In this document: piece after piece, positions 1 through 60,151 of the stretch
Layout of the letters: each line of letters begins with the position of its first letter
Position numbering within the stretch: the first letter of the stretch is position 1
Source: Halogeometricum limi
GTDB taxonomy: Archaea; Halobacteriota; Halobacteria; Halobacteriales; Haloferacaceae
Direction of reading: 5' to 3'
DNA: 64,000 bases
Assembly: GCF_900115785.1 (NCBI RefSeq)
Contig: NZ_FOYS01000007.1
Span: 62,001 to 126,000, forward strand
Notes under the pieces: generated by a model
Told to the model about the DNA's origin: nothing
Database searches by the model: none
The model's input: the letters and a program-made list of their open reading frames with translations, nothing else
Position numbers and translations under genes: made by a program

Positions 1-176
1 GGATGCGTATTTGAGCCATGATTCACCTTGACACGCCGAGGAGGTAAAAGCGCGGTGTCGGGGCATCGGCGACGCGAATCCGTCGGTCCGGGGCGGTGCC
101 GCGTCGACCGTGGACGTTCGAGAGCGCGGCGCGCACTCCGAAACCCACAAGCGGCCCCCTCGGGTAGAAGCGTGCA

Positions 177-1115
177 ATGAACCCCTTAGAGCGGTACGCG
201 CCGCTCGTGGACGACGAGGAGGCGTTCTTCGAGGCCTGCGACCGGCCGCTTCCGTCCGTCGTTCGCGTCAACGGCATCAAGACGACGGTAGAGCGCGCGC
301 GTTCGGCACTCGACGCCGGCGACGTCGGCTACGAGGCGACCGACTGGCATCCGGGAATCCTGAAACTGGACGAACGCGGCCCCGGGACGACGTGGCCCTA
401 CTTCCACGGGTGGCTCCACGGCCAAGAAGAAGTGTCGGCGCTCCCCGCACTCGCACTCGACCCGCAACCGGGAGAGGTCATCTGGGACGCCTGTGCCGCC
501 CCCGGAAGCAAGACGACGCAACTCGCGGACCTGATGGACGACACGGGAACGCTCATCGGCAACGACAACAACCTCGGCCGCCTCTCCGCTCTGCGGCACA
601 ACGCCGAACGCCTCGGCGTGAGCAACCTCGTCGTGACCAATCAGGACGCGCGAAACTACTCGCTGAAGCCGTTCGGCGAGGACACGGACGACCCCGAAGC
701 GATAGACGCGTTCGACCGGGCACTCGTGGACGCGCCGTGTTCCTGCGAGGGGACGATTCGGAAGAACCCCGACGCGCTGGACCGGTGGACGATGAACCAC
801 GTCCACAGCGTCGCCGGAATCCAGAAAGGCATCCTTCGCCGCGCGGTGCAAGCGACGCGCGAGGGCGGCACCGTCGTCTACTCGACGTGCACGTTCGCGC
901 CCGAGGAGAACGAAGCCGTACTGGACCACGTGCTCGGCGAGGAGGACTGCCAGATGGTCGAATGGGACGCGCCCGACGGCTTCGAGACGGCCCTCGGCGT
1001 GACCGAGTGGGACGGCGACGAGTACGACCCCTCCGTGGAACTGGCACACCGCGTCTACCCGCACCACAACGACACGGGCGGGTTCTTCTGCGCGAAACTG
1101 GAGGTGACCGCATGA
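177..1115 (+). CDS. RsmB/NOP2/Sun-family RNA cytosine-C5 methyltransferase
   Basis: SAM-dependent m5C methyltransferase acting on tRNA or rRNA in the cytoplasm. The 312-residue protein has the family signatures: the SAM-binding segment with CAAPGSKT near residue 105, motif IV DAPCSCEGT near residue 185 (the PC cysteine releases the product) and motif VI STCTFAPEENE near residue 238 (the TC cysteine is the nucleophile). It ends after the catalytic domain, and its stop overlaps the start of the next gene (ATGA, 4 nt), which encodes a PUA-like module. The two probably form a split version of the MTase-PUA proteins seen elsewhere. The family is certain from the motifs; the exact target base cannot be told from sequence. 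Confidence 0.93.
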   Translation: MNPLERYAPLVDDEEAFFEACDRPLPSVVRVNGIKTTVERARSALDAGDVGYEATDWHPGILKLDERGPGTTWPYFHGWLHGQEEVSALPALALDPQPGEVIWDACAAPGSKTTQLADLMDDTGTLIGNDNNLGRLSALRHNAERLGVSNLVVTNQDARNYSLKPFGEDTDDPEAIDAFDRALVDAPCSCEGTIRKNPDALDRWTMNHVHSVAGIQKGILRRAVQATREGGTVVYSTCTFAPEENEAVLDHVLGEEDCQMVEWDAPDGFETALGVTEWDGDEYDPSVELAHRVYPHHNDTGGFFCAKLEVTA

Positions 1116-1645
1116 GCGACGACACCGGCGACCAGAGGCCCGAGAACGACGGCCAGCGGTTCGACCGCCTGCCCGCGACGAGCGACGAACGCGTCGTCGC
1201 CGGGCGACCCACCCGCGAGGAAGTCGTCGGCTGGTGGGAACAGCGCTACGGACTCCCGCCGGAGACGTGGGACGGACACACGTTCTGGGAGAAAGGCAAC
1301 GGGAAGATTTGGGCGTTCGCCGCCGACCTGGTGAGTCCGAACCCCGTCGAGGGTCTCGGTCTGCGCATCCTCCGCGCGCGGCAGGAACACTGGAAACCCT
1401 CGACCAACGCCGTCCAGCGTTTCTGCGGCGCGGCGTCGAAGAACGTCGTCCTGTTGGACGAAGACGAGGCGGAGACGTTCGCCCGCGGCGACGACCAGGA
1501 ACTCGAACGCTGGGAGGGCGACTGGGGCTACGTCGTCGCCGCCCACGAGTTCGAGGGCGCGGTCGAACCCATCGGCGTCGGCCTCTATCTCCACGGCGAA
1601 CTGCGGTCGACGGTGCCGAAAGGGCGGCAGGAAGACCTGTCGTAA
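1112..1645 (+). CDS. PUA-like RNA-binding partner of the upstream methyltransferase (DUF7122-like)
   Basis: A 177-residue protein whose ATG lies inside the last codons of the methyltransferase gene (4-nt overlap), so translation is probably coupled. The body (VGWWEQRYGLP, then GKIWAF, GLGLRILR, STNAVQRF) resembles the C-terminal RNA-binding extension of RsmF/NOP2-type methyltransferases, here as a separate polypeptide. An acidic, Arg-rich N-terminus of about 30 residues precedes it. It would position substrate RNA for the methyltransferase. The role is inferred from gene overlap and resemblance; no catalytic motif is visible. A much longer open frame starting further upstream is only the shadow frame of the methyltransferase gene. 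Confidence 0.8.
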   Translation: MSDDTGDQRPENDGQRFDRLPATSDERVVAGRPTREEVVGWWEQRYGLPPETWDGHTFWEKGNGKIWAFAADLVSPNPVEGLGLRILRARQEHWKPSTNAVQRFCGAASKNVVLLDEDEAETFARGDDQELERWEGDWGYVVAAHEFEGAVEPIGVGLYLHGELRSTVPKGRQEDLS

Positions 1646-1658
1646 GGTCGTCTCTCGG

Positions 1659-3197
1659 TCACTCCTTCTCTCGAAGCGTCCCGCCGCCCAGTCCCTCCCA
1701 CGCCACTCGGTAGCCGAGTCGCGACAACACCGCCGAGGACTCAGTGACCCCTCGGCGCTCCAAAACCGCCTCCGCCTCCGACAGCGACATCCCCGCGTCT
1801 AACTCCTCGGCGAGAGCGTCAAGCACCGCGGGCCGAAAGAGCGTCCGTCCGACGAGTTCGTGGTCGGGGAACGCCACCGCCGAGAGGGCGTTTTCGGCGA
1901 CGCCGTGAGCCTCCGCCAGCGACGCGAGCGAAACCACGTCCTCGTCGGGCGCGAGTTCCGCGGGCAACTCGGCGGCCGCGTCGGCGACTAACTCCGCCTC
2001 GTACCCGCGAAGGACGTCCACCACGTCCTTCACCCGAACCGACCCGGAGTAGGTGACGACGCGGTGGTCCAGTGCCGCGACGTCCTCGGCGACGGCCAAC
2101 GACTCGTCGACGGCGACGACGAGTTCGACGTCGTCGGCGACGGTGGCGAACTGGTCGAGTTTCTTCTCGACGTACTCGGGCGTCCAAAAGCCCATGACCT
2201 CGAAGAAGACGCGGAGCGGTGGGTCCCCCGCACCCTCTCTCTCTCGCCCGCCGGGTCGGTAGTCGAACGCGAAGTCGGGAATCATCGCCCGCGCGCCCGC
2301 AGCGAGCGGTTCCGGTTCGCGCAGGAGTTCCCAGTCGAGGTTCAGCCCCTCGAACCGCGCGGCGAAGTCGGCTTCGACGCCGCTGTCGTAGGTGGGTTCC
2401 GTGACGGGGTCGACGTCCGGAACCGACACGTCCGCCTCCGAGAGCGTCATCTCGCGTTCGGTGCCTCGGTCGTCGATGGTGGCCGTGAGTCGCCACTCGG
2501 CCGTCCCCGCGACGGTCCTGAGGAGGCGGGCGAACGCCGTCCCGTAGCGTCGCGTCCCGGTGAACAGGCCGTCGGGACCGGTGACGACGAGTTCCCGCGT
2601 CTCGCCGTCGCGGCGAATCTCGTACATCAGTCCGAGGCGTTTCACCGCCGAGACGAGTCGCTTCGGGTCGGAGCTTCGGACTCGAACCTCGGTGGCGTCG
2701 AACAACGCGGTCTGTGCCAGAGAGAGGTTGTACTGGTCGAGGAGGGCGTCGGGCGACCAGCGCGGGTCGAACTCGGCGAGGAGTTCGTTCACCGACCGGT
2801 CGGCGTAGAGCGACCGCGCTATCGACTCGCGGTCGGTGGCGAGGCGGTCCGCCGCGGCGTCGAGGACGGCCGTTCGCGCCGCCTCGGTGGTGGGGACGCC
2901 CGCCGCTTCGGCCGCCTCGAACGTCGCTCGACGGACGCGGACGGGCGGGAGCGGAGCCGACACCTCGAACGTCGCCTCCCGTTCCAACAGCGCCGCGAAC
3001 CCGCGGACGAGTTTGAAGTCCTCGGCGTCGCCTTCGAGGGCGGAGAGCGCGTCGTCCAGGCGGTGCCGCGGTTCGCCGACGTGCCCCTGATAGACCCCGA
3101 AGACGCGCGCGGCGAGGGGACGCGACTCCCGGCCGACGAACCGCGGGTGGTAGCCGCCGCCCGCCCGAGAGACGCGCAAGAGGTCTTTCGTCAACAC
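1659..3197 (-). CDS. bax1: Bax1-type nuclease (DUF790), XPB partner
   Basis: Structure-specific nuclease that works with the archaeal XPB helicase in nucleotide excision repair. I place the start at a GTG giving VLTKDLLRVSR, the usual N-terminus of the family, rather than at an ATG nine codons earlier. That gives 512 residues, a normal length. The nuclease core is visible as IPDFAFDYRPGG, then FFEVMGFWTPEYVEKKLDQ, which fits a PD-(D/E)xK active site (D, E, K). The C-terminal part is helical. The xpb gene lies on the same strand upstream, but a lipoprotein gene on the opposite strand sits between them, so the usual xpb-bax1 adjacency is interrupted here. Confidence 0.9.
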   Translation of the reverse strand: MLTKDLLRVSRAGGGYHPRFVGRESRPLAARVFGVYQGHVGEPRHRLDDALSALEGDAEDFKLVRGFAALLEREATFEVSAPLPPVRVRRATFEAAEAAGVPTTEAARTAVLDAAADRLATDRESIARSLYADRSVNELLAEFDPRWSPDALLDQYNLSLAQTALFDATEVRVRSSDPKRLVSAVKRLGLMYEIRRDGETRELVVTGPDGLFTGTRRYGTAFARLLRTVAGTAEWRLTATIDDRGTEREMTLSEADVSVPDVDPVTEPTYDSGVEADFAARFEGLNLDWELLREPEPLAAGARAMIPDFAFDYRPGGREREGAGDPPLRVFFEVMGFWTPEYVEKKLDQFATVADDVELVVAVDESLAVAEDVAALDHRVVTYSGSVRVKDVVDVLRGYEAELVADAAAELPAELAPDEDVVSLASLAEAHGVAENALSAVAFPDHELVGRTLFRPAVLDALAEELDAGMSLSEAEAVLERRGVTESSAVLSRLGYRVAWEGLGGGTLREKE

Positions 3198-3311
3198 GAG
3201 CGAGCGTTGGCCGCGCCGTCTCAAAAGGCCGCCGACGCAGCGTCGGCGAGTGCCCCCGGCGCGGACGGCGAAGGGGAAGGCTCATACCGTCCGACGGGAT
3301 GTTCTGCGTAC

Positions 3312-3716
3312 ATGGCAACGCGCCGCACGTTCCTCCGCGCCCTCCCGGCGAGCGTCCTCGCGGTCGGCGGCGGCTGTCTCGGGTCGCCCCCGCGCGGGAC
3401 CGGCCCCCGTCGCCCGCCGGACGCACCGGCCGGACAGCCCCGACAGACCCCCGAGAAGGACGAACTGTACGTGGAACGGTTCGACTTCGAGGCCACCGAT
3501 TCGGGCGGCCTCCGCGTGTTCGGAGCCGTCGGCAACCGCGGCGACGTCGAACGCGTCGCCACCGTCCGCGTGCGCGTGACGGTCGGCGGTGAGTCGTACA
3601 CCGACGAGGAGGACGTGACCGTCGGCCCGGGCGAGACGGCGACGTTCTCGACGGCGTTCGAGGTGACCGAAAAGCGGTTCGCGAACGGCGGCGAACTCGA
3701 CGTGACGCTCGTCTGA
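3312..3716 (+). CDS. Tat-exported lipoprotein with a beta-sandwich (FxLYD-like) domain
   Basis: A 134-residue exported protein. The N-terminus ATRRTFLRALPASVLAVGGG with a following Cys is a twin-arginine signal ending in a lipobox, so the mature protein would be lipid-anchored on the outer face of the membrane. After a Pro/Arg linker, the domain at residues 55-134 alternates beta strands (RVFGAVGNRGDVERVATVRV, then TVGPGETATFSTAF). This pattern resembles the small FxLYD/CARDB-like extracellular sandwiches. The gene is read opposite to xpb and bax1 and lies between them, so a link to repair is unlikely. Binding partner unknown. Confidence 0.75.
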   Translation: MATRRTFLRALPASVLAVGGGCLGSPPRGTGPRRPPDAPAGQPRQTPEKDELYVERFDFEATDSGGLRVFGAVGNRGDVERVATVRVRVTVGGESYTDEEDVTVGPGETATFSTAFEVTEKRFANGGELDVTLV

Positions 3717-3744
3717 GCGCCGGAGTTCGACGCGGAGAGAGAAA

Positions 3745-5094
3745 CTACCGCCGCCGGTCGGCGACTCGTTCTTCTGCGGTCTCGCTGCTGACGAGTTCGT
3801 ACAGTATCGCGGAGCCACCGTCGACCTTCGGGCGGAGGATGCGCCCGAGTCGCTGCGTGAACTCGCGTTCGGACCCGCTTCCGGCGAGGATGACGGCCAC
3901 GTTCGCATCCGGGACGTCGACTCCCTCGTCGAGGACGTTCGCGGCGACGACGCGCGAGTACGTCCCGTCGCGGAAGCGTTCGAGCAGTTCGCGTCGCTCC
4001 TCGGCACCCGTCTCGCTCGTTATCGCCGGGAGGAGATAGCGCTCGGAGAGGCGGTAGACGAGGTCTGTGTGCGCGGTGAAGACGATGACGCGGTCCTCGC
4101 GGTGTCTGTCGAGGATGCGACCCAGTCGCTCAACCTTCGCGTCGGCGTTCATCATGATGCGGCGCGCGCGTTGCTTCGCGAGGAGGGCCTCTCGCGCCCG
4201 CGGGTCCGACCCCGACCGCATCACGAGTTTCTGGTAGTCCGCTCCGGAGCGAAAGGAGAGATTCGACCGTTTGAGGTAGTCGACGAACGTCCCCTGCGCC
4301 TCCTCGTAACGGTCGCGTTCCTCGGGCGTGAGGTCGACTTCGACCCGTCGGACCTCGTAGTCGGCGAGGTGTTCGCCCGCCAGGTCGTCGACCGACCGGT
4401 CGTACACCTTCGGGCCGACGAGGTCGGTCAGGAGTTCGTGCGCGCCGTCGGGCCGTTCGAACGTCGCCGTCAGACCGAGGCGGGCGGGCGCGGCGAGGAG
4501 TCGCGCCACGTCGCGGTAGCCCGCGCCGCCGAGGTGGTGGACTTCGTCGAAGACGACGAGGCCGAAGTCGCCGCCGACGTCTTCGGCGCGGAGATACGCC
4601 GAGTCGTAGGTGGAGACGGTGATGGCCTCCTGCGTCTGCTCGCCGCCGCCGAACTGACCGACGGAGACGCCGAACTCCGTCTCCAGTTCGCGTCGCCACT
4701 GGCCGACGAGGTCCACCGTGGGAGCGACGACCAGCGTCGGCACGCCGAGTGCGGCGATGGCGGCGACGGCTATCACGGTCTTTCCGGCCCCCGTCGGGAG
4801 TTCGAGCACCCCCCGGTCGCCGTTCTCGCGCCACGCGTCGAGCGCCGCCCGCTGGTAGTCGCGGAGGTCGTACGCGTGCGCGAGGTCCAGCGTCGTCTCC
4901 GGGAGGACGCGGTCCTCGTAGTCGACGCCGCGCCGGTCGAGCGTCGCCCGGAGGTCACCGTAGCGGTGGGCGGGCGCGCGGGCGACGAGTCCCCTGTCGT
5001 CCCACGTCACCCCCGGGAGGTCGGACGCGGCGACGTCGGACTTCGAGAGACCGCCGACGCGGACCGTCCCGTCTTCGAACGTCAGCGTGAGCAC
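3745..5094 (-). CDS. xpb: XPB/Rad25-type DNA repair helicase
   Basis: SF2 DNA helicase/translocase of nucleotide excision repair, paired with Bax1 in archaea. The GTG start gives 449 residues, the usual archaeal XPB size (no large eukaryotic N-terminus). An N-terminal damage-recognition-like domain (residues 1-70) precedes RecA domain 1, with Walker A LPTGAGKT (99-106), DEVHH (183-187) and TAT (209-211). RecA domain 2 has VIVFTAHTD (337-345) and the arginine-finger motif QRLGRILRP (414-422). A TATA-like ATTTATAC lies about 36 nt upstream of the start on the minus strand. Identity is secure from the ordered motifs. Confidence 0.94.
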   Translation of the reverse strand: MLTLTFEDGTVRVGGLSKSDVAASDLPGVTWDDRGLVARAPAHRYGDLRATLDRRGVDYEDRVLPETTLDLAHAYDLRDYQRAALDAWRENGDRGVLELPTGAGKTVIAVAAIAALGVPTLVVAPTVDLVGQWRRELETEFGVSVGQFGGGEQTQEAITVSTYDSAYLRAEDVGGDFGLVVFDEVHHLGGAGYRDVARLLAAPARLGLTATFERPDGAHELLTDLVGPKVYDRSVDDLAGEHLADYEVRRVEVDLTPEERDRYEEAQGTFVDYLKRSNLSFRSGADYQKLVMRSGSDPRAREALLAKQRARRIMMNADAKVERLGRILDRHREDRVIVFTAHTDLVYRLSERYLLPAITSETGAEERRELLERFRDGTYSRVVAANVLDEGVDVPDANVAVILAGSGSEREFTQRLGRILRPKVDGGSAILYELVSSETAEERVADRRR

Positions 5095-5196
5095 ACAGAA
5101 GTCTGGGTCGGCATCGGGTATAAATCGACGGACGTGCGGTACTGCGGATTTCGATACGAATCGCTACCGTAATACAATGTTCAACATGACAGAATA

Positions 5197-5207
5197 TTTT
5201 AATTATA
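5197..5207 (+). promoter_or_regulatory. TATA box of the small membrane protein gene at 5227
   Basis: TTTTAATTATA centred 25 nt before the ATG at 5227. This is the spacing expected when transcription starts at or just before the start codon, and it supports that small gene as real. Confidence 0.55.
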
Positions 5208-5226
5208 GGGAGAGAACTAACATCCG

Positions 5227-5409
5227 ATGAATCGGTGGACTCAGACTGGATATCTCGTTACTGTGGGGGTGTTTCTAGCAGTTTTTGTAGCCGTGTCCGG
5301 AGACGCGCACGGCACAGTCGTTGATTTGCGTACCCTCGTCGACACATACCACCTCGCTCTCGGCGTCTCGGGAGTGGGGGTGTTTCTCTGGCTGTGGCCT
5401 GATTGGTGA
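5227..5409 (+). CDS. Small two-helix membrane protein
   Basis: A 60-residue hypothetical protein. Two hydrophobic segments (about residues 8-25 and 43-58, ending FLWLWPDW) are joined by a short polar loop, so it should be a hairpin in the cytoplasmic membrane. The frame is short and its codon use is less GC-rich than that of its neighbours. Support comes mainly from a well-placed TATA box 25 nt upstream and the coherent membrane topology. No family recognised. Confidence 0.55.
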   Translation: MNRWTQTGYLVTVGVFLAVFVAVSGDAHGTVVDLRTLVDTYHLALGVSGVGVFLWLWPDW

Positions 5410-5496
5410 TTTAGTCGCTGAGTTCTGTGTTCACCAACAACCCGTGGCTCACGCGACGACGAGGCGTTTTTGACTGTCCGACCACATCTGACGGAT

Positions 5497-5655
5497 ATGG
5501 CAGACGAACTCGAAGACGCGGTCGGAACGTTCCTCTCGGACGTGAAGAAGGCGCACAGCGAGTACGAGAAGGGCTACGTCGACGCCGACGCGACGCTGGA
5601 ACTCGTGATGAACCACGTCGAGGACCTCAAAGAGACGTACGAGGACGAAGCGTAG
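5497..5655 (+). CDS. Short acidic helical protein
   Basis: A 52-residue protein starting ADELEDAVGTFLSDVKKAHS after its Met. It is almost entirely amphipathic helix with heptad-like hydrophobics, rich in Asp and Glu, without Cys or membrane segments. I chose the ATG at 5497 over one nine codons upstream because the acidic, haloarchaeal-looking sequence begins there. It lies upstream of, and on the same strand as, the aminotransferase gene, about 115 nt away. Function unknown; it may be a small cytoplasmic scaffold or regulator. Confidence 0.6.
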   Translation: MADELEDAVGTFLSDVKKAHSEYEKGYVDADATLELVMNHVEDLKETYEDEA

Positions 5656-5770
5656 TCGATACCGACGCGACGACTCGTCGGTGAGTCGTCGACCGGTCCG
5701 CGGAGTCGGCGAACGTCGGCACCGCCCATGTGAGGGAAGAACTATCCCGGCGGGCGACTCGGGGTAGTGT

Positions 5771-6892
5771 ATGACGGACTTTTCCGACAGAGTCGAGAAG
5801 GTGTCGATAAGCGGAATCCGCGAGGTGTTCGAGGCCGCGGGCGCGGACGCGATAAACCTCGGCATCGGGCAACCTGACTTCCCGACGCCGAAACACGCCC
5901 GACAGGCCGCCATCGACGCCATCGAGGACGGCCGCGCGGACGCGTACACCGAGAACAAGGGCATCTACTCGCTCCGCGAGGCCATCGCGGCGAAACACGA
6001 ACGCGACCAGGGAATCGACCTGCACCCCGACGACGTCATCGCGACGGCCGGGGGGTCCGAAGCGCTCCACATCGCGATGGAGGCGCACGTGAACCCCGGT
6101 GACGAGGTCATCATCCCCGACCCCGGATTCGTCTCCTACGACGCCCTGACGAAACTGGCGGGGGGGACGCCCGTTCCCATCGCCCTCCGCGACGACCTGA
6201 CGCTCGACCCGGCCGCGGTGGAGGCGGCCATCACCGAGGACACCGCGGCGTTCGTCGTCAACAGTCCCGGTAACCCGACGGGGGCGGTGTCGCCGCCGGA
6301 AGATATCCGCGAGTTCGCGCGCATCGCCGACGAACACGACGTGCTCTGCATCTCCGACGAGGTGTACGAGTACACCGTCTTCGACGGCGAGTTCCGCTCT
6401 CCCATCGAGTTCGCCGAGACGGACAACGTCGTCGTCGTCAACTCCGCGTCGAAACTGTTCTCGATGACCGGGTGGCGTCTCGGGTGGGTGTACGGCTCCT
6501 CGCGCCGCGTCGAGCGTATGGTTCGCGTGCACCAGTACGCGCAGGCCTGCGCGTCGGCCCCGTCGCAGTTCGCCGCGGAGGCGGCACTCACCGGCCCGCA
6601 GGACATCGTCGACGAGATGACGGAGTCGTTCCGCCGTCGCCGAGACATCGTCGTCGAAGGCCTGCGAGACATCGGCCTCTCGGTGCCGACGCCGACGGGG
6701 GCGTTCTACTGTATGCCCGAAGTGCCCGAGGGGTTCGTCGACGAGTGTCTCGAACGCGGCGTCATCGTCGTCCCCGGCGAGGCGTTCGGCGCGAACGGCG
6801 CGGGCTACGCGCGACTCTCCTACGCGACGGACGAGGACTCTCTCCGGGAAGCGCTGGACGTGATGGGCGACGCCTACGACGCCGTCGTCTGA
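5771..6892 (+). CDS. Pyridoxal-phosphate aminotransferase, class I/II (aspartate aminotransferase-like)
   Basis: Fold-type I PLP aminotransferase of 373 residues. Visible signatures are NLGIGQPDFPTP near residue 29, the substrate-loop Tyr in ADAYTENKGI, NSPGNPTGAV near 163, SDEVYEY near 195 (Asp and Tyr contact the cofactor) and NSASKLFSMTGWRLGW near 225, whose Lys forms the Schiff base. The C-terminal Arg in GYARLSYA binds the substrate carboxylate. It probably transaminates aspartate or an aromatic or branched amino acid with 2-oxoglutarate. Substrate choice within this family cannot be read from sequence. It appears to be a single-gene unit. Confidence 0.9.
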   Translation: MTDFSDRVEKVSISGIREVFEAAGADAINLGIGQPDFPTPKHARQAAIDAIEDGRADAYTENKGIYSLREAIAAKHERDQGIDLHPDDVIATAGGSEALHIAMEAHVNPGDEVIIPDPGFVSYDALTKLAGGTPVPIALRDDLTLDPAAVEAAITEDTAAFVVNSPGNPTGAVSPPEDIREFARIADEHDVLCISDEVYEYTVFDGEFRSPIEFAETDNVVVVNSASKLFSMTGWRLGWVYGSSRRVERMVRVHQYAQACASAPSQFAAEAALTGPQDIVDEMTESFRRRRDIVVEGLRDIGLSVPTPTGAFYCMPEVPEGFVDECLERGVIVVPGEAFGANGAGYARLSYATDEDSLREALDVMGDAYDAVV

Positions 6893-7197
6893 GACGACGC
6901 ACCACGCTCGCCGACGGCCCGGTTCGTCGGCGTACGCAGGACGACCAGTTCTGATAGCGGTACGTTAATCTTCACTCTCGGGCGTTCGCACCGATTTCGG
7001 GCCGAACCGCGTACAAAATTCACATACACAGTACAGTCAATATTTCGTACTGGTAGCAAAATTTTGGTATATTCTCGTGATAATTTAGCGATTCTAGCTC
7101 AGTCCTAATCAGTTAGGCCGGGTGCTGAATACGGAACCGTGTCTCCGAGAGAGTACAGCAGGGGACGAACGAAACCCCGCGCACTCCACCACGAACG
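6893..7197. other. Intergenic AT-rich promoter region
   Basis: About 305 nt without a gene. The right half is markedly AT-rich for this genome, with several TATA-like stretches around 7045-7095 and a short dyad CCTAA-TCAG-TTAGG near 7107-7120. It probably holds the promoter of the HTH gene at 7198. No RNA gene is visible. Confidence 0.4.
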
Positions 7198-7500
7198 ATG
7201 AACGATACAATCGCAACCCTCGCCGACCGCGACCGCAGAACCGTGCTGTCCTGTCTGGACGACCACTCCGCCGCAGTCGACATCGAGACGTTGGCCGCCG
7301 ACGTGGTCGCCGCCTGTGACGGCACGTCCCGCGACGAGGTTTCCGAAGAAGACCGCGACGCCGCGATGGTCCGTCTGCACCACGTCGACCTCCCGAAACT
7401 CCAGAACGCGGGATTCGTCGACTTCGACCACGAGACCGGAACAGTTCGCCGTCGCCGCCGTGGTGGAACGGCCCGACCCTCGCCCGCGCTCTCGGACTGA
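7198..7500 (+). CDS. Winged-helix DNA-binding protein (DUF7344-like)
   Basis: A 100-residue protein with the pattern of the haloarchaeal DUF7344 family: ALADRDRRTVLSCL-type first helix, a DIETLAADV recognition region, then RLHHVDLPKLQNAGFVDFD, a helix followed by the wing. It is probably a transcriptional regulator acting as a dimer. The 6.9-7.2 kb region upstream is AT-rich and includes a small dyad that could be an autoregulatory site. The C-terminus is Arg-rich (RRRRRGGTAR). Regulatory targets are unknown; it stands alone, flanked by a convergent gene. Confidence 0.8.
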   Translation: MNDTIATLADRDRRTVLSCLDDHSAAVDIETLAADVVAACDGTSRDEVSEEDRDAAMVRLHHVDLPKLQNAGFVDFDHETGTVRRRRRGGTARPSPALSD

Positions 7501-7696
7501 GCGCGTCGAGGTAGACTTATACGGTATCGGCACGAAATAAAATACGACCGGGACGTACGCAGGACTCTGCCATGGACACGTAGGTCCTCATACCCGGTTT
7601 ACGGACACTACACCTCCGAGCGACGGCCCTCGTCGCTCGCTTTTCGTGTCGCACTCGCGACGACGAGTCGCGACGCTGTGAACCGCCTTCAGCCCG

Positions 7697-8872
7697 CTAC
7701 TTCGCGGTGCTGACTATCTTGATGACGTCGGCCTCGTCCAGTTCGTAGTCCTCGGCGATACGGCGCGTCGACCGCGCGTCGACGGCGTGGAGGTAGCCGT
7801 CGCCGATGTCGGAGTGGACGGCGTAGGCGAGGTCACGCGGCGTCGACCCGCGTTCGAGTAAGAACGCGTCGGGGAGCATCTCGCCGGTGCCGTCGGTCCA
7901 TCGCGTCTCGTTCTGGACCGGGTAGGCGGTGACCATGTCGAGAACGTCGTAGACGGCCGTGTTGAGGGCCGTCTGGACGCCGGTGCCGCCGTTCGCTTCG
8001 ACAACCTCGCGAATCTTCTCTAAGCCCTTCTCCTGCGCCGCCGAGACGTCGCCGACGATGTCGAAGTCGTCGTCGCCGGGGAGGTAGTCGACGATGCCCG
8101 CCTCGGCCGCCTTTCGAAGGCCGAGTTCGCCGTCGGCGGTGGCGGCGACGACGGGTTTGTCGCTCTCGCGGAGTCGTTCGAGGTTCTCCGGCGGGGCCAC
8201 GTCCGCCTTGTTGGCGACGAGGACGATGGGTTTCGTCCGCGCTCTGACGTCGCGCGCGAGTGCCTCGCGATGCTCGTCGGTCCACTGTTTGGGGTCAGCG
8301 GGGTACTCCAGTGCGCGGAGCGAGGCGGCCACCTCGTACTCCGTGGCGCCGAACCCCGTGAGCATCTCGGCGAGCGCCTCGTCGATGTCGAAGTCGGGCG
8401 ACCGAGACTTGCGGACGACCGACTCCCAGTTCTTCTCGATGATGCCCGCGAGCCACTGCTCTAACTCCGCTTCGACGAAGTCGGCCTCTTCGACGGGGTC
8501 GTACGTCCCTATCTCGACGGGTTCGCCCTCCTCGTTCGTTCCGCCGGAGGCGTCGACGACGGCGAGGATGACGTCGGCGTTCGTGAGGGCGTCCAGGAAC
8601 TGGTTCCCCAGTCCGCGGCCCTCGTGCGCTCCGGGGACGAGTCCGGCCACGTCGAGGAGTTCGACGCCGACGTACCGGACGCCGTCCTCGCAGTTCCCGC
8701 AGCGTTCGTCTCGGTCCAGACACGGACACCGGGTCCGCGCGTAACTGACGCCGCGGTTCGGGTCGATGGTCGTGAACGGGTAGTTGCCCACGTCCACGTC
8801 GGCCATGGTCGCCGCCTTGTAGAAGGTGGACTTGCCCGCGTTGGGCTTGCCCGCGAGTGCGATAGAGAGCAT
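7697..8872 (-). CDS. ychF: YchF/OBG-family P-loop NTPase with TGS domain
   Basis: Cytoplasmic TRAFAC-class NTPase associated with ribosomes and stress. The 391-residue protein has G1 GKPNAGKST (8-16), G2/switch FTTIDPN, G3 DVAGLVPGAHEGRGLGNQF and G4 VANKAD (near 220). A C-terminal TGS-type domain ends DEADVIKIVS. A CPCLDRDERCGNC cluster near residue 50, four Cys in the CxC...CxxC pattern, lies in the insert between G2 and G3 and would suit a zinc or redox site. The start ATG is immediately followed by the P-loop strand, as in the family. Called by database convention a redox-regulated ATPase; the cellular role in archaea is unproven. Confidence 0.9.
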   Translation of the reverse strand: MLSIALAGKPNAGKSTFYKAATMADVDVGNYPFTTIDPNRGVSYARTRCPCLDRDERCGNCEDGVRYVGVELLDVAGLVPGAHEGRGLGNQFLDALTNADVILAVVDASGGTNEEGEPVEIGTYDPVEEADFVEAELEQWLAGIIEKNWESVVRKSRSPDFDIDEALAEMLTGFGATEYEVAASLRALEYPADPKQWTDEHREALARDVRARTKPIVLVANKADVAPPENLERLRESDKPVVAATADGELGLRKAAEAGIVDYLPGDDDFDIVGDVSAAQEKGLEKIREVVEANGGTGVQTALNTAVYDVLDMVTAYPVQNETRWTDGTGEMLPDAFLLERGSTPRDLAYAVHSDIGDGYLHAVDARSTRRIAEDYELDEADVIKIVSTAK

Positions 8873-8950
8873 GGTTGCAGAACGAGTGACGGTCGGAACA
8901 TCCTTTCGGTCCCGAGAGTTCTCGAACGGCCCGGAGACGCGGCGTCCCGA

Positions 8951-9868
8951 CTACGAGTGCGGCAACAGTCGGTGCCGGAAGCGCCACGCGAGGCCGGCGA
9001 GGAGGGCGACGGGGAGGACGAACGCCAGCACGTACGGGAGGGCGAACGCCACGCCGACGACGACGGCGCGGGCGACGACGGCGACGCCGTCGACGGACTG
9101 AAGGAACGCCGAGAGGACGGGCGTGTCGTACCACCGGTCGGGCGCGATACGCTGCGGCGTCGGCCGCGGTTCGTTCAGTTGGACGGTGAGCGTCGAGTAG
9201 GCGACGCGGTCCTCCAAGGACTGTTTCTGTGCCTCCAGACGCTCTATCTCGCCCTGAACGTCGGAGAGTTCTCGCTGGACCGCCAACACGTCCTCGGTGG
9301 TGTTCGCCTCGTCGTACAGTTCGCGAAGTTGGTCCCGTTGCGCGCGGAGGTTCTCCAAGCGCGCGTTCAGGTCGACGAGTCGGTCCGTCACGTCCTCGGT
9401 GTTCGTCTCCACCACCTGCACGTCGCCCTCGGCGCGCGCGTCGTCGACGAGTGCGTCGAACCGGTCGGCGGGGACGCGCAGGACGAGTCGCCCCGTCGTG
9501 TACGTCTCGTTGCCGACGCTGTGTCGCTCTTGGGTCGTGTCCGAGACGAACCCGCCGTACTCCTCGACGTGGGCCGTGAGGTTCCGTTTCGACGCGTCGA
9601 ACGAGTCGACTTCGACGCGCATCCGACCGGTCTTGATGAGTTGCCGCGTCTGCACGTTCGCCTGTACGGAAGCGTCGCCGTTCGACCCGCCGGACCCGCC
9701 GCTCGTCGCCTCGGCTTCGACTGCGGTGGCCGACGCGCCCGCGTCTGCACGACTCTGTGACACTGCCTCGCCCCCGTCCCCACCACCGCTGTTCGCCGCC
9801 CCGTTACACCCGGCGAGGGCGACGAGGACGACGACGGCGACGAGGACGAGCGTTCGTCTCTGTGACAT
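8951..9868 (-). CDS. DUF4349-family lipoprotein
   Basis: A 305-residue envelope protein. A Sec-type signal ends in the lipobox LAGC near residue 21, followed by a Gly/Ser/Asp-rich linker (22-70). The core (about 72-235) matches DUF4349: RQLIKTGRMRVEVDSFD, then RLVLRVPADRFD, then a long heptad coiled coil (about 150-210, NARLENLRAQRDQLRELYDE). A membrane helix near residues 262-295 is followed by a short basic tail. So the protein is anchored at both ends, with the coiled coil outside. It lies between ychF and the halofilin-like gene on one strand. Function in archaea unknown; an envelope or scaffold role is inference. Confidence 0.82.
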   Translation of the reverse strand: MSQRRTLVLVAVVVLVALAGCNGAANSGGGDGGEAVSQSRADAGASATAVEAEATSGGSGGSNGDASVQANVQTRQLIKTGRMRVEVDSFDASKRNLTAHVEEYGGFVSDTTQERHSVGNETYTTGRLVLRVPADRFDALVDDARAEGDVQVVETNTEDVTDRLVDLNARLENLRAQRDQLRELYDEANTTEDVLAVQRELSDVQGEIERLEAQKQSLEDRVAYSTLTVQLNEPRPTPQRIAPDRWYDTPVLSAFLQSVDGVAVVARAVVVGVAFALPYVLAFVLPVALLAGLAWRFRHRLLPHS

Positions 9869-9937
9869 CCTGACACACCGTACGACTACGTATCAAAAAG
9901 ATTTGACGTTGGCACAAACGGTCGTTTGACATACCGC

Positions 9938-10789
9938 CTACTCGGCGTCGCGGGACACGTCCGCGCGGACGATTCGCATGTCGCCTTTCGCGCGCATCGT
10001 CCCGTCGACGGCGGCGCTCTCGTGGAGTTCGAGTTCCGCACAGGAGACGTCGCCGAGGATTCGGGCGTCTTCCGCGATGGTGACGGTGCCGTTCCGCGTC
10101 GTCACGTCGCCGTGGATTCTCGTTCCCGACCCGACGGCGACGTCGCCCCGCGCGCGCAGACTGCCGAAGATGTTGTCGTCCTCGCCGACGGTGATGGACT
10201 CCGCGCGGATGTTGCCGTGGATTCGACACTCGTCGCCGATGTGGGCGGGCGTCGAGGCGCGCCACGCGTCGTCGGAGACGGTGGAACCCCGGGGTATCAC
10301 GAGTGGGTCCACCTCGCTGCTCCCGGAGAGCGAGTCCGCCAACTCGCCCGCCGCCTCGTTCTCGCCCAACCGAAGGAGTTGCGAGAGGACGATGAAGTAG
10401 AAGACGAGCGTCGGGACGGGGTTGCGGATGACGATCCAGCCGCTGGCCTCGAACCCCTGTTCGATGTCCACGTCGTCGCCGATGTCGAGGTCGCCGGAGA
10501 CCATGAGACGGCCGCCGACGTGGACGCGTTCGCCGAGGTAGGCGTCCTCGCCGACGAGGACGTTCCCGGCCACGTCGCACCAGACGTCGAGTCGGCAGTC
10601 GCCCTCCGCTTCGATGTCGCCGCCGAATCTGACGCGTTCGCCGGCGACGACGTTTCGGCCGCGAACCCCGAACTCGACGGTGCTCTGCCCGCCGACGATG
10701 ACGTCCCCGTCGGTCACCAAGTCGTGCTCTTCGACGGTCGTGCCGTCGGGGATTTCGAGCGCGTCGAGCGGGTCCGAACCGAGTGACAC
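9938..10789 (-). CDS. Bactofilin-like (halofilin) polymer-forming protein with internal membrane helix
   Basis: A 283-residue protein built from two runs of short beta-helix repeats rich in G-D-V (residues about 15-115 and 160-275, e.g. IVGGQSTVEF, VGEDAYLGERVHVGG, DVAVGSGTRIHGDV). These flank one hydrophobic segment at about 118-140. This is the architecture of bactofilins, and of the halofilins that control cell shape in Haloferax; the HalA/HalB choice is not settled by eye. Start chosen at the GTG giving VSLGSDPLDALEIPDG: the open frame extends 64 codons upstream, but that part is low quality and runs across a TATA-like TTATAA about 25 nt before the GTG. Divergent from the DUF5800 gene. 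Confidence 0.8.
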   Translation of the reverse strand: MSLGSDPLDALEIPDGTTVEEHDLVTDGDVIVGGQSTVEFGVRGRNVVAGERVRFGGDIEAEGDCRLDVWCDVAGNVLVGEDAYLGERVHVGGRLMVSGDLDIGDDVDIEQGFEASGWIVIRNPVPTLVFYFIVLSQLLRLGENEAAGELADSLSGSSEVDPLVIPRGSTVSDDAWRASTPAHIGDECRIHGNIRAESITVGEDDNIFGSLRARGDVAVGSGTRIHGDVTTRNGTVTIAEDARILGDVSCAELELHESAAVDGTMRAKGDMRIVRADVSRDAE

Positions 10790-59555: not shown

Positions 59556-59755
59556 CAGTTATTCGTCAACTGCAGTGAGAAAAAGGCTTGTGGGACGTTC
59601 TCTGGGGTGATAACCGCTGACGCGCGTCAGACAACTGTCTGCGGGTTGTGACGGGACGGACGCCAGAGCGGATTCGGAGTGCGACGACGAACTGCCACGG
59701 GCGGGACGTCTCCGAGAGTGCTGTTCGTTTCCACCCGGGCCGGTGGTCGGTTCGG

Positions 59756-59816
59756 GGCTCGGATTCGAATCGAGAGAATCCCGCTCCGCTCGCACTCTGG
59801 CCCGTGAATTCGGTCT
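59756..59816. repeat. tRNA-derived hairpin unit A
   Basis: Most diverged unit. GGCTCGGATTCGAATCGAG retains the T-arm loop (TTCGAAT) with a changed stem; the distal arm GTGAATTCGGTC is partly complementary. Confidence 0.55.
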
Positions 59817-59835
59817 GTACCCTCGTTCAGTATGT

Positions 59836-59896
59836 GGGACCGGATTCGAACCGCGAGGACTTCGCTTCGCTCGTCCTCTGGGCCGCGAATCCGGCC
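59836..59896. repeat. tRNA-derived hairpin unit B
   Basis: GGGACCGGATTCGAACC, then a stem with GAGGAC and GTCCTC around a loop TTCGCTTCGCTC, closed by GCCGCGAATCCGG. Its left flank AGTATG is shared with the flank of the tRNA 3' end (60063-60068). Confidence 0.6.
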
Positions 59897-59935
59897 ATTG
59901 CGATGGCTCTCCTCACTGACGTTCGGAGAAGCCAT

Positions 59936-60030
59936 GCGCGGGACCGGATTCGAACCGGAGTGAGACATTCCGGGCGTGCGGCCCTTCGGGCCGTTCCGGG
60001 CTGTGACTCACAGGGTTCTCTCCGGCCGTT
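59936..60030. repeat. tRNA-derived hairpin unit C
   Basis: The first 23 nt (59936-59958) match the tRNA 3' end (60068-60090) at 22 positions; the difference is C/T in the T-loop. It then contains GTGAGAC with GTGACTCAC, and an inner hairpin CGGCCCTTCGGGCCG. Confidence 0.65.
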
Positions 60031-60066
60031 GCGCATACATGCCTCTCACGTTCGTTCAAGGCAGTA

Positions 60067-60151
60067 TGCGCGGGACCGGATTTGAACCGGCGGACTCCTA
60101 TGAGACAGCGTCCTAAGCGCTGCGCCGTTGGCCAGGCTTGGCTACCCGCGC
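60067..60151 (-). tRNA. trnL-UAG: tRNA-Leu (anticodon UAG)
   Basis: Type II cloverleaf on the minus strand, 85 nt. The acceptor stem is GCGCGGG with CCCGCGC (7 bp), discriminator A at the 3' end. The anticodon stem is CAGCG/CGCTG around a CTTAGGA loop, giving anticodon UAG, which reads CUA leucine codons. A long variable arm with a short hairpin (TCTCATAGGAGT) fits leucine. The T-arm is GCCGG/CCGGT with TTCAAAT. CCA is not encoded. Its 3' half was copied several times into the downstream region. Confidence 0.95.

Follow-up and report, generated by a model that had tools for sequence, protein, structure and literature searches.

Probable small insertions, each about 100 bases long, folding into hairpins and ending in the tRNA's own tail, trail about 40% of the tRNA genes of Halogeometricum limi

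The stretch of DNA analysed here, 64,000 nt of the genome of Halogeometricum limi (hereafter the window), carries a tRNA-Leu(UAG) gene on the − strand, so that its 3′ flank runs toward lower coordinates. This flank consists of three tandem units of ~80–130 nt each. Read on the tRNA strand, a unit comprises a first hairpin (hairpin 1), a short inverted copy of the T-loop, a conserved hairpin that we call the top, and a direct copy of nt 53–73 of the tRNA. Their boundaries coincide exactly with the 3′ end of the tRNA, and an extra hairpin lies between the tRNA and the inverted arm. The features of the array are the following.

60067..60151, − strand: tRNA-Leu(UAG) gene, host of the array (ARAGORN; Rfam RF00005, 49.1 bits)
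59935..60066, − strand: unit 1, tRNA-proximal and complete, 132 nt, bounded by the tRNA 3′ end and the direct copy (1 mismatch in 21)
60036..60066, − strand: hairpin 1 of unit 1, TACTGCCTTGAACGAACGTGAGAGGCATGTA (from the fold and from comparison, the same hairpin 1 being found in unit 2 of a congener, G004)
59959..60035, − strand: degenerate inverted arm of unit 1, GGCCGGAGAGAACC, and its T2/T3-type top, CCCTGTGAGTCACAGCCCGG...GCCCGGAATGTCTCACTCCG (alignment)
59935..59958, − strand: direct copy of the tRNA 3′ end in unit 1, CCGGTTCGAATCCGGTCCCGCGCA, previously called unit C (sequence match)
59831..59934, − strand: unit 2, 104 nt (comparison and unit extraction)
59901..59934, − strand: hairpin 1 of unit 2, TGGCTTCTCCGAACGTCAGTGAGGAGAGCCATCG, in similar form in all four congeners
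59836..59896, − strand: T4-type hairpin of unit 2, made of the inverted arm, the top GCCCAGAGGACGAGCGAAGCGAAGTCCTCGCGG and the start of the direct copy; these 61 nt are 100% identical in a genome of another family (G284)
59831..59851, − strand: direct copy of unit 2, 4 mismatches in 21, previously called unit B (unit extraction)
59749..59830, − strand: unit 3, distal and decayed, with a T4-like top, previously called unit A (comparison)
59749-59771, − strand: worn direct copy of unit 3 (sequence match)

The inverted arm of unit 2 reads GGCCGGATTCG, and the top module of unit 1 is matched at 79% by a T3 query. A first-pass annotation of this DNA had described repeats of the T-arm and acceptor end downstream of the tRNA, and we find these copies at 59936-59958, 59831-59853, and 59749-59771. 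The match of 22 of 23 nt that it gave for the first of them (59936-59958 versus 60068-60090) is exact, the AGTATG that it saw in common between flanks is present at 60063 and 59829, and the palindrome that it ascribed to each unit corresponds to a hairpin with a partial inverted T-arm, which precedes each direct copy on the tRNA strand. Short open reading frames cross the array on both strands between 59559 and 60085 (e.g., 59627-59968 on the − strand and 59648-60085 on the + strand). The earlier advice to leave such peptides unannotated is sound: the frames spanning the array are almost surely not genes. The units, at 60–200 nt, are too small to hold a gene, and among the open reading frames of the window no large one suggestive of an integrase adjoins the array. 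Around the arrays, the tRNA is the sole match in Rfam 15 (a sub-threshold miRNA match lies elsewhere in one locus); since the units match none of its models, we rejected their membership in a known structured RNA family.

The array of tRNA-Leu(UAG) has many counterparts in the same genome. We scored the last 30 nt of each of its 46 tRNA genes, taken with 600 nt of flank, against all the downstream regions of the genome. At a score of at least 14, 21 of the 46 genes (3.8 expected) have downstream a copy of their own 3′ end that outscores the copy of any other tRNA; at a score of at least 20, this is the case for 16 of the 46 (0.11 expected). The own-copy scores sum to 686, and the maximum in 100,000 permutations is 522, which places the P value at the limit of the procedure. 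The own-tRNA copies are thus far beyond chance, and hairpin-folding, probably inserted units of ~100 bases that end in the tail of their own tRNA trail about 40% of the genome's tRNA genes. To these the intron-containing tRNA-Trp adds two full units in tandem plus a third trailer, and its adjacent units are near-identical tandem duplicates. From H. limi and two congeneric genomes we extracted 97 units, and the direct copy spans G53 to the discriminator base in most of them.

The top modules sort into families. The T1 top is CAGGGAGCGAACGNAGTGAGCGACCG, with tandem G-A mismatches, the T2/T3 top is CCTGNAAGTCACAGCCCGCGCAG...GAGCAGGAATGTCTTNC, and the T4 top is the one of unit 2 in the window. T4 is found behind tRNA-Leu, Val, Gln, Glu, and Met, and T3 behind tRNA-Leu, Gly, Met, Arg, Ile, Pro, Lys, and Phe, with an outer stem that in both fits whichever tRNA carries the unit. 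Across families, the same T1, T3, and T4 tops are met again behind one tRNA after another. The 61-nt T4 identity with another family is a single case and no proof of recent transfer, because it combines a conserved top with arms that are fixed by the tRNA.

The fold of these modules is conserved. In an alignment of 29 T3 sequences, double changes occur at 13 of 27 pairs, amounting to 62 double-change cells versus 17.1 ± 2.9 in shuffles. The covariation of 0.258 is lost when the structure is slid along the alignment (at most 0.074). A T2/T3 alignment drawn mostly from tRNA-Leu loci covaries likewise, and internal-loop nucleotides are conserved. The sense strand folds better than the antisense in 70 of 86 units, DNA-parameter energies point in the same direction, and the tandem-GA apex occurs 82 times on the sense strand and nine times on the antisense. 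It is thus the folded tRNA-sense strand that matters, either as RNA or as single-stranded DNA. We dropped an excess of G-U pairs as proof of selection at the RNA level, since it comes mostly from two motif positions.

The two copies of the tRNA end within a unit differ in their extent. The direct copy is specific to its tRNA over its whole length. The inverted arm tracks its own T-loop and the first T-stem pairs (own sum 768 versus a permutation maximum of 682), and beyond the T-loop it has no own-tRNA specificity (P = 0.38). This led us to abandon the idea that all 22 nt of the tRNA end are present in inverted form, and with it a circular "dumbbell" with a 22-bp stem. The limited specificity accords better with an element that bears a complement of the T-loop and duplicates about 21 nt of its target than with a duplicated palindrome.

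Similar units are widespread among the Halobacteria. A covariance model of the T1 hairpin has matches in 24 of 26 sampled genomes of the class, with two to 22 per genome. Elsewhere in the phylum it gave only seven single borderline matches (E about 5e-4 to 1e-3), which we rejected as tRNA-like noise; units were not convincingly found outside the class. Exact T1 matches come from Haloferax, Halobellus, Halorarius, Halogeometricum, Salinigranum, Halegenticoccus, Halalkalirubrum, and unclassified Haloferacaceae; in the named genomes, 17 of 20 sit 28–118 nt behind a tRNA gene on the same strand, and the tRNAs are many and different. Among 243 genomes of the order, 82 have the T4 hairpin (with unit 2 of the window as query) and 111 have T3. 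Units follow 22 of 30 orthologues of tRNA-Leu(UAG); in one genome of the same family (G009; locus L111, G009:C3) there is neither a unit behind this tRNA nor a T1 match. The search of haloarchaeal genomes and the folding that had been proposed earlier thus returned similar units near other tRNAs and in relatives, together with a conserved fold. This supports the suggestion of a tRNA-derived palindromic family, whose members stand behind many tRNAs in most Halobacteria and have conserved, covarying hairpin sequences. The initial observation is confirmed and greatly extended, and its interpretation is partly right.

The comparison of close relatives shows how units are gained and lost. Five congeneric tRNA-Leu(UAG) loci have one to three units each, with common hairpin-1 modules whose order is kept, and G004 has an extra proximal unit before two equivalents of units 1 and 2 of the window. 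When three congeners are compared tRNA by tRNA, the presence of units differs, with zero to three at the same tRNA and many tRNAs without any. Empty sites can be recognised. At tRNA-Arg(TCT), the flank directly behind the tRNA of G004 aligns just past the tRNA-end copy of the unit in H. limi (G000). The same is seen at tRNA-Ala(CGC) and Asp, and tRNA-Thr(GGT) has this pattern with a weaker alignment. At tRNA-Val(TAC), an extra proximal unit is present in G002. The distal copy is more diverged than the proximal one in 12 arrays, and the reverse holds in three (P = 0.035). Empty sites, extra units next to the tRNA, and distal decay therefore point to units inserted serially at the tRNA 3′ end. 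Unequal crossing-over between copies could account for part of the tandem gain and loss.

Some units seem to have been inherited for long. The nearest relative of hairpin 1 lies at the same tRNA in another species in 22 of 56 cases (2.7 expected), and that of the top in 16 of 56 (2.7 expected), which makes the top less faithful to the tRNA than hairpin 1. Hence, some units would be old residents with tops that turn over. Part of the unit population may thus be old and kept by selection, which counts against a reading by insertion alone.

We think it moderately probable that the array in the window results from three serial insertions of a family of miniature, non-autonomous elements of Halobacteria. 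The observations behind this reading are the own-tRNA copies, the exact boundaries, the empty sites, the proximal gain, the sharing of modules across tRNAs and families, the covariation, and the strand asymmetry. An element of about 55–125 nt, made of hairpin 1, a T-loop complement of 9–12 nt, and a conserved top hairpin, would insert immediately after a tRNA gene's discriminator base. The gene would stay intact, with about 21 nt of its 3′ end (nt 53–73) duplicated. The element would be mobilised in trans as a folded single strand, of DNA or RNA, presumably by a tyrosine recombinase or an HUH-type enzyme, and the T-loop complement could aim it at tRNA genes. A bolder and rather unlikely possibility is that these elements form a new class that finds tRNA genes by base pairing: a folded strand with a complement of the universal T-loop would insert behind the matching tRNA, copy its last 21 nt, and so build harmless arrays. 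If true, insertion into tRNA genes would be guided by nucleic acid throughout a class of archaea. Against the insertion reading, no mobilising enzyme came to light, and searches of phages, plasmids, and viral contigs for a carrier or an autonomous relative gave no real matches beyond chance; a Natrinema megaplasmid had one weak partial match.

Miniature tRNA-targeting insertions are the most likely explanation in our ranking, followed by a functional RNA in the tRNA trailer, which we consider rather unlikely. Hairpins in the tRNA precursor would then bind a protein or aid its termination, processing, or stability. The fold would be kept by selection, and the need for pairing in the outer stem would yield the copies of the tRNA end. 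The covariation of T3, the conserved internal-loop nucleotides, the sense-strand bias, and the location, mostly 28–118 nt behind tRNAs on the same strand, agree with such a role, as does the ability of hairpins to terminate transcription in Haloferax volcanii (PMC7237163). The conserved sequence within T3 also exceeds the needs of a passive insert and counts against insertion. A trailer RNA, however, requires neither that 21 nt of the tRNA end be copied exactly nor that empty sites be clean, and it sits poorly with congeners that hold zero to three units at the same tRNA, with the many tRNAs that have none, and with the decay of distal units.

Integrative elements use some of the same tRNAs, and one of the two readings offered by the first-pass annotation was that the units are serial attachment-site scars left by them. 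The congener G003 has at its tRNA-Leu(UAG) a 10-kb element (locus L094, G003:C1:80700-95000; positions 146-10250 of the locus) with a Pfam Phage_integrase gene at the tRNA-proximal end (218-1378). Its attR, at about 10.2 kb, resembles the tRNA from the anticodon arm onward and has neither an inverted arm nor a hairpin before it, and a normal, intact unit lies beyond it. At the same tRNA in G012, a 2.2-kb interval ends in a 57-nt partial copy of the tRNA (29-85) without inverted arm or hairpin. The attR of both is thus similar to the tRNA from the anticodon arm onward, the unit copies start at nt 53, and the two kinds of direct repeat are not equal. In H. limi, a 3′-end remnant of tRNA-Pro adjoins the end of an integrase-like gene and is followed by a T1 unit (locus L011, G000:C8:370000-372500, about 1200-1500). 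The gene scores below Pfam's cut-off and is likely an integrase; the body of the tRNA-Pro is elsewhere, and an element seems to separate it from the unit. Where an integrase is present, the units sit outside the element.

That integrases target these tRNAs, and that attR carries the tRNA 3′ end, would suit scars of integrase-borne elements that lost their interior. A few haloarchaeal prophages also leave a tRNA duplication of only 22 nt, according to one study (PMC3119063), and the length of the duplication alone is therefore not decisive; the hairpins and the empty sites decide. Against scars, the units fall into one size class with conserved, covarying modules at dozens of tRNAs, and at tRNA-Leu(UAG) the attR duplicates differ from the units in start and structure. 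We regard this origin as improbable. The serial part of the earlier proposal stands, with proximal gain, distal decay, and empty sites; simple integrase scars are not supported as stated. Replication template switching at the T-arm, which would make palindromes that recombination between tRNA-end repeats then spreads or loses without any dedicated element, would suit the near-palindromic T-loop, the tops at tRNA-Arg(TCG) that vary fast yet stay paired, and the tandem duplicates at tRNA-Trp, but we give it little credence, as local switching would not produce conserved tops that recur behind different tRNAs in many families.

If the units are miniature insertions, several known systems offer comparisons. 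Like REPs and REPINs, which RAYT (TnpA-REP) mobilises, they are short, conserved, palindromic, extragenic, non-autonomous, and structured as hairpins, with several families per genome and many copies (two to 22 T1 matches per genome, T4 in 82 and T3 in 111 of the 243 genomes). REPs, however, are scattered over the genome and carry a GTAG-type tag, whereas the units are nearly confined to the 3′ flanks of tRNA genes and close with a direct copy that is specific to the tRNA. Among the T1 matches listed for H. limi, 20 of 21 lie downstream of a tRNA gene on the same strand, and the other lies behind a tRNA-end remnant. The PATEs, SMRs, and MITEs of Haloquadratum walsbyi are also small, transposase-free, mobile haloarchaeal repeats, some with near-terminal palindromes; in the relevant parts of their description they are not presented as tRNA-targeted, and PATEs make no target duplication (PMC3119063), whereas the units duplicate about 21 nt of the tRNA. 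MITEs in general would have terminal inverted repeats in common with an autonomous transposon and a target duplication of fixed length; in the units the inverted arm complements the duplication and not the other terminus, and no parent transposon is known. Integrase-borne elements and CIMEs likewise insert at tRNA 3′ ends, restore the gene, and leave a direct repeat of its end, but they are kilobases long and carry genes, and their attR at tRNA-Leu(UAG) is longer and without hairpins. Integron cassettes, in tandem and each ending in an imperfect hairpin (attC), could by analogy provide a model of recombination on a folded strand; the units differ in that they have no cargo, that no integrase gene adjoins the array, and that arrays are separate for each tRNA. 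In Escherichia coli, 178-bp tandem repeats lie behind the tRNA gene tyrT, each with the last ~19 nt of the tRNA. They concern one locus and are nearly identical, whereas the units occur at many tRNAs across a whole class and have conserved hairpin modules.

In the literature covered, which lies outside subscription journals, tRNA fragments were regarded in a 2023 survey as by-products of integration or CRISPR (PMC9897764), the relevant part of a review of archaeal tyrosine recombinases describes a preference for tRNA 3′ ends and mentions no such units (PMC8371274), and a survey of palindromic repeats mentions neither haloarchaea nor tRNA genes (PMC12306157). The class-wide family looks undescribed. 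The archaeal class is well sequenced, and yet almost half of the tRNA genes in one of its genomes carry a structured repeat that is taken by annotation pipelines for tRNA fragments or for spurious short proteins. The short repeats of tRNA 3′ ends that the units add can mislead the annotation of tRNAs as well as the mapping of tRNA fragments and integration sites. If mobile, the units would rank with the smallest known insertions that target tRNA genes and would point to a new enzyme; if functional, they would add a conserved RNA layer to tRNA expression. Both readings are testable in Haloferax species with standard genetics.

A second layout occurs behind tRNA-Ala, Arg(CCT), and Arg(CCG) (loci L031, L034, and L043 in G000; L182 and L214 in G002 and G004). 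There, the T-loop is missing from the copy, the inverted arm is complementary to the acceptor strand, and the opposite strand bears the tandem-GA hairpin. We rejected tandem-GA hairpins as a general terminator motif, as they have no enrichment elsewhere in the window. Four contig ends of the H. limi assembly (C3:615700, C5:420419, C6:742236, and C8:939509) also have such motifs at a distance of no more than about 90 nt, and there a repeated element of the tandem-GA hairpin type may break the assembly.
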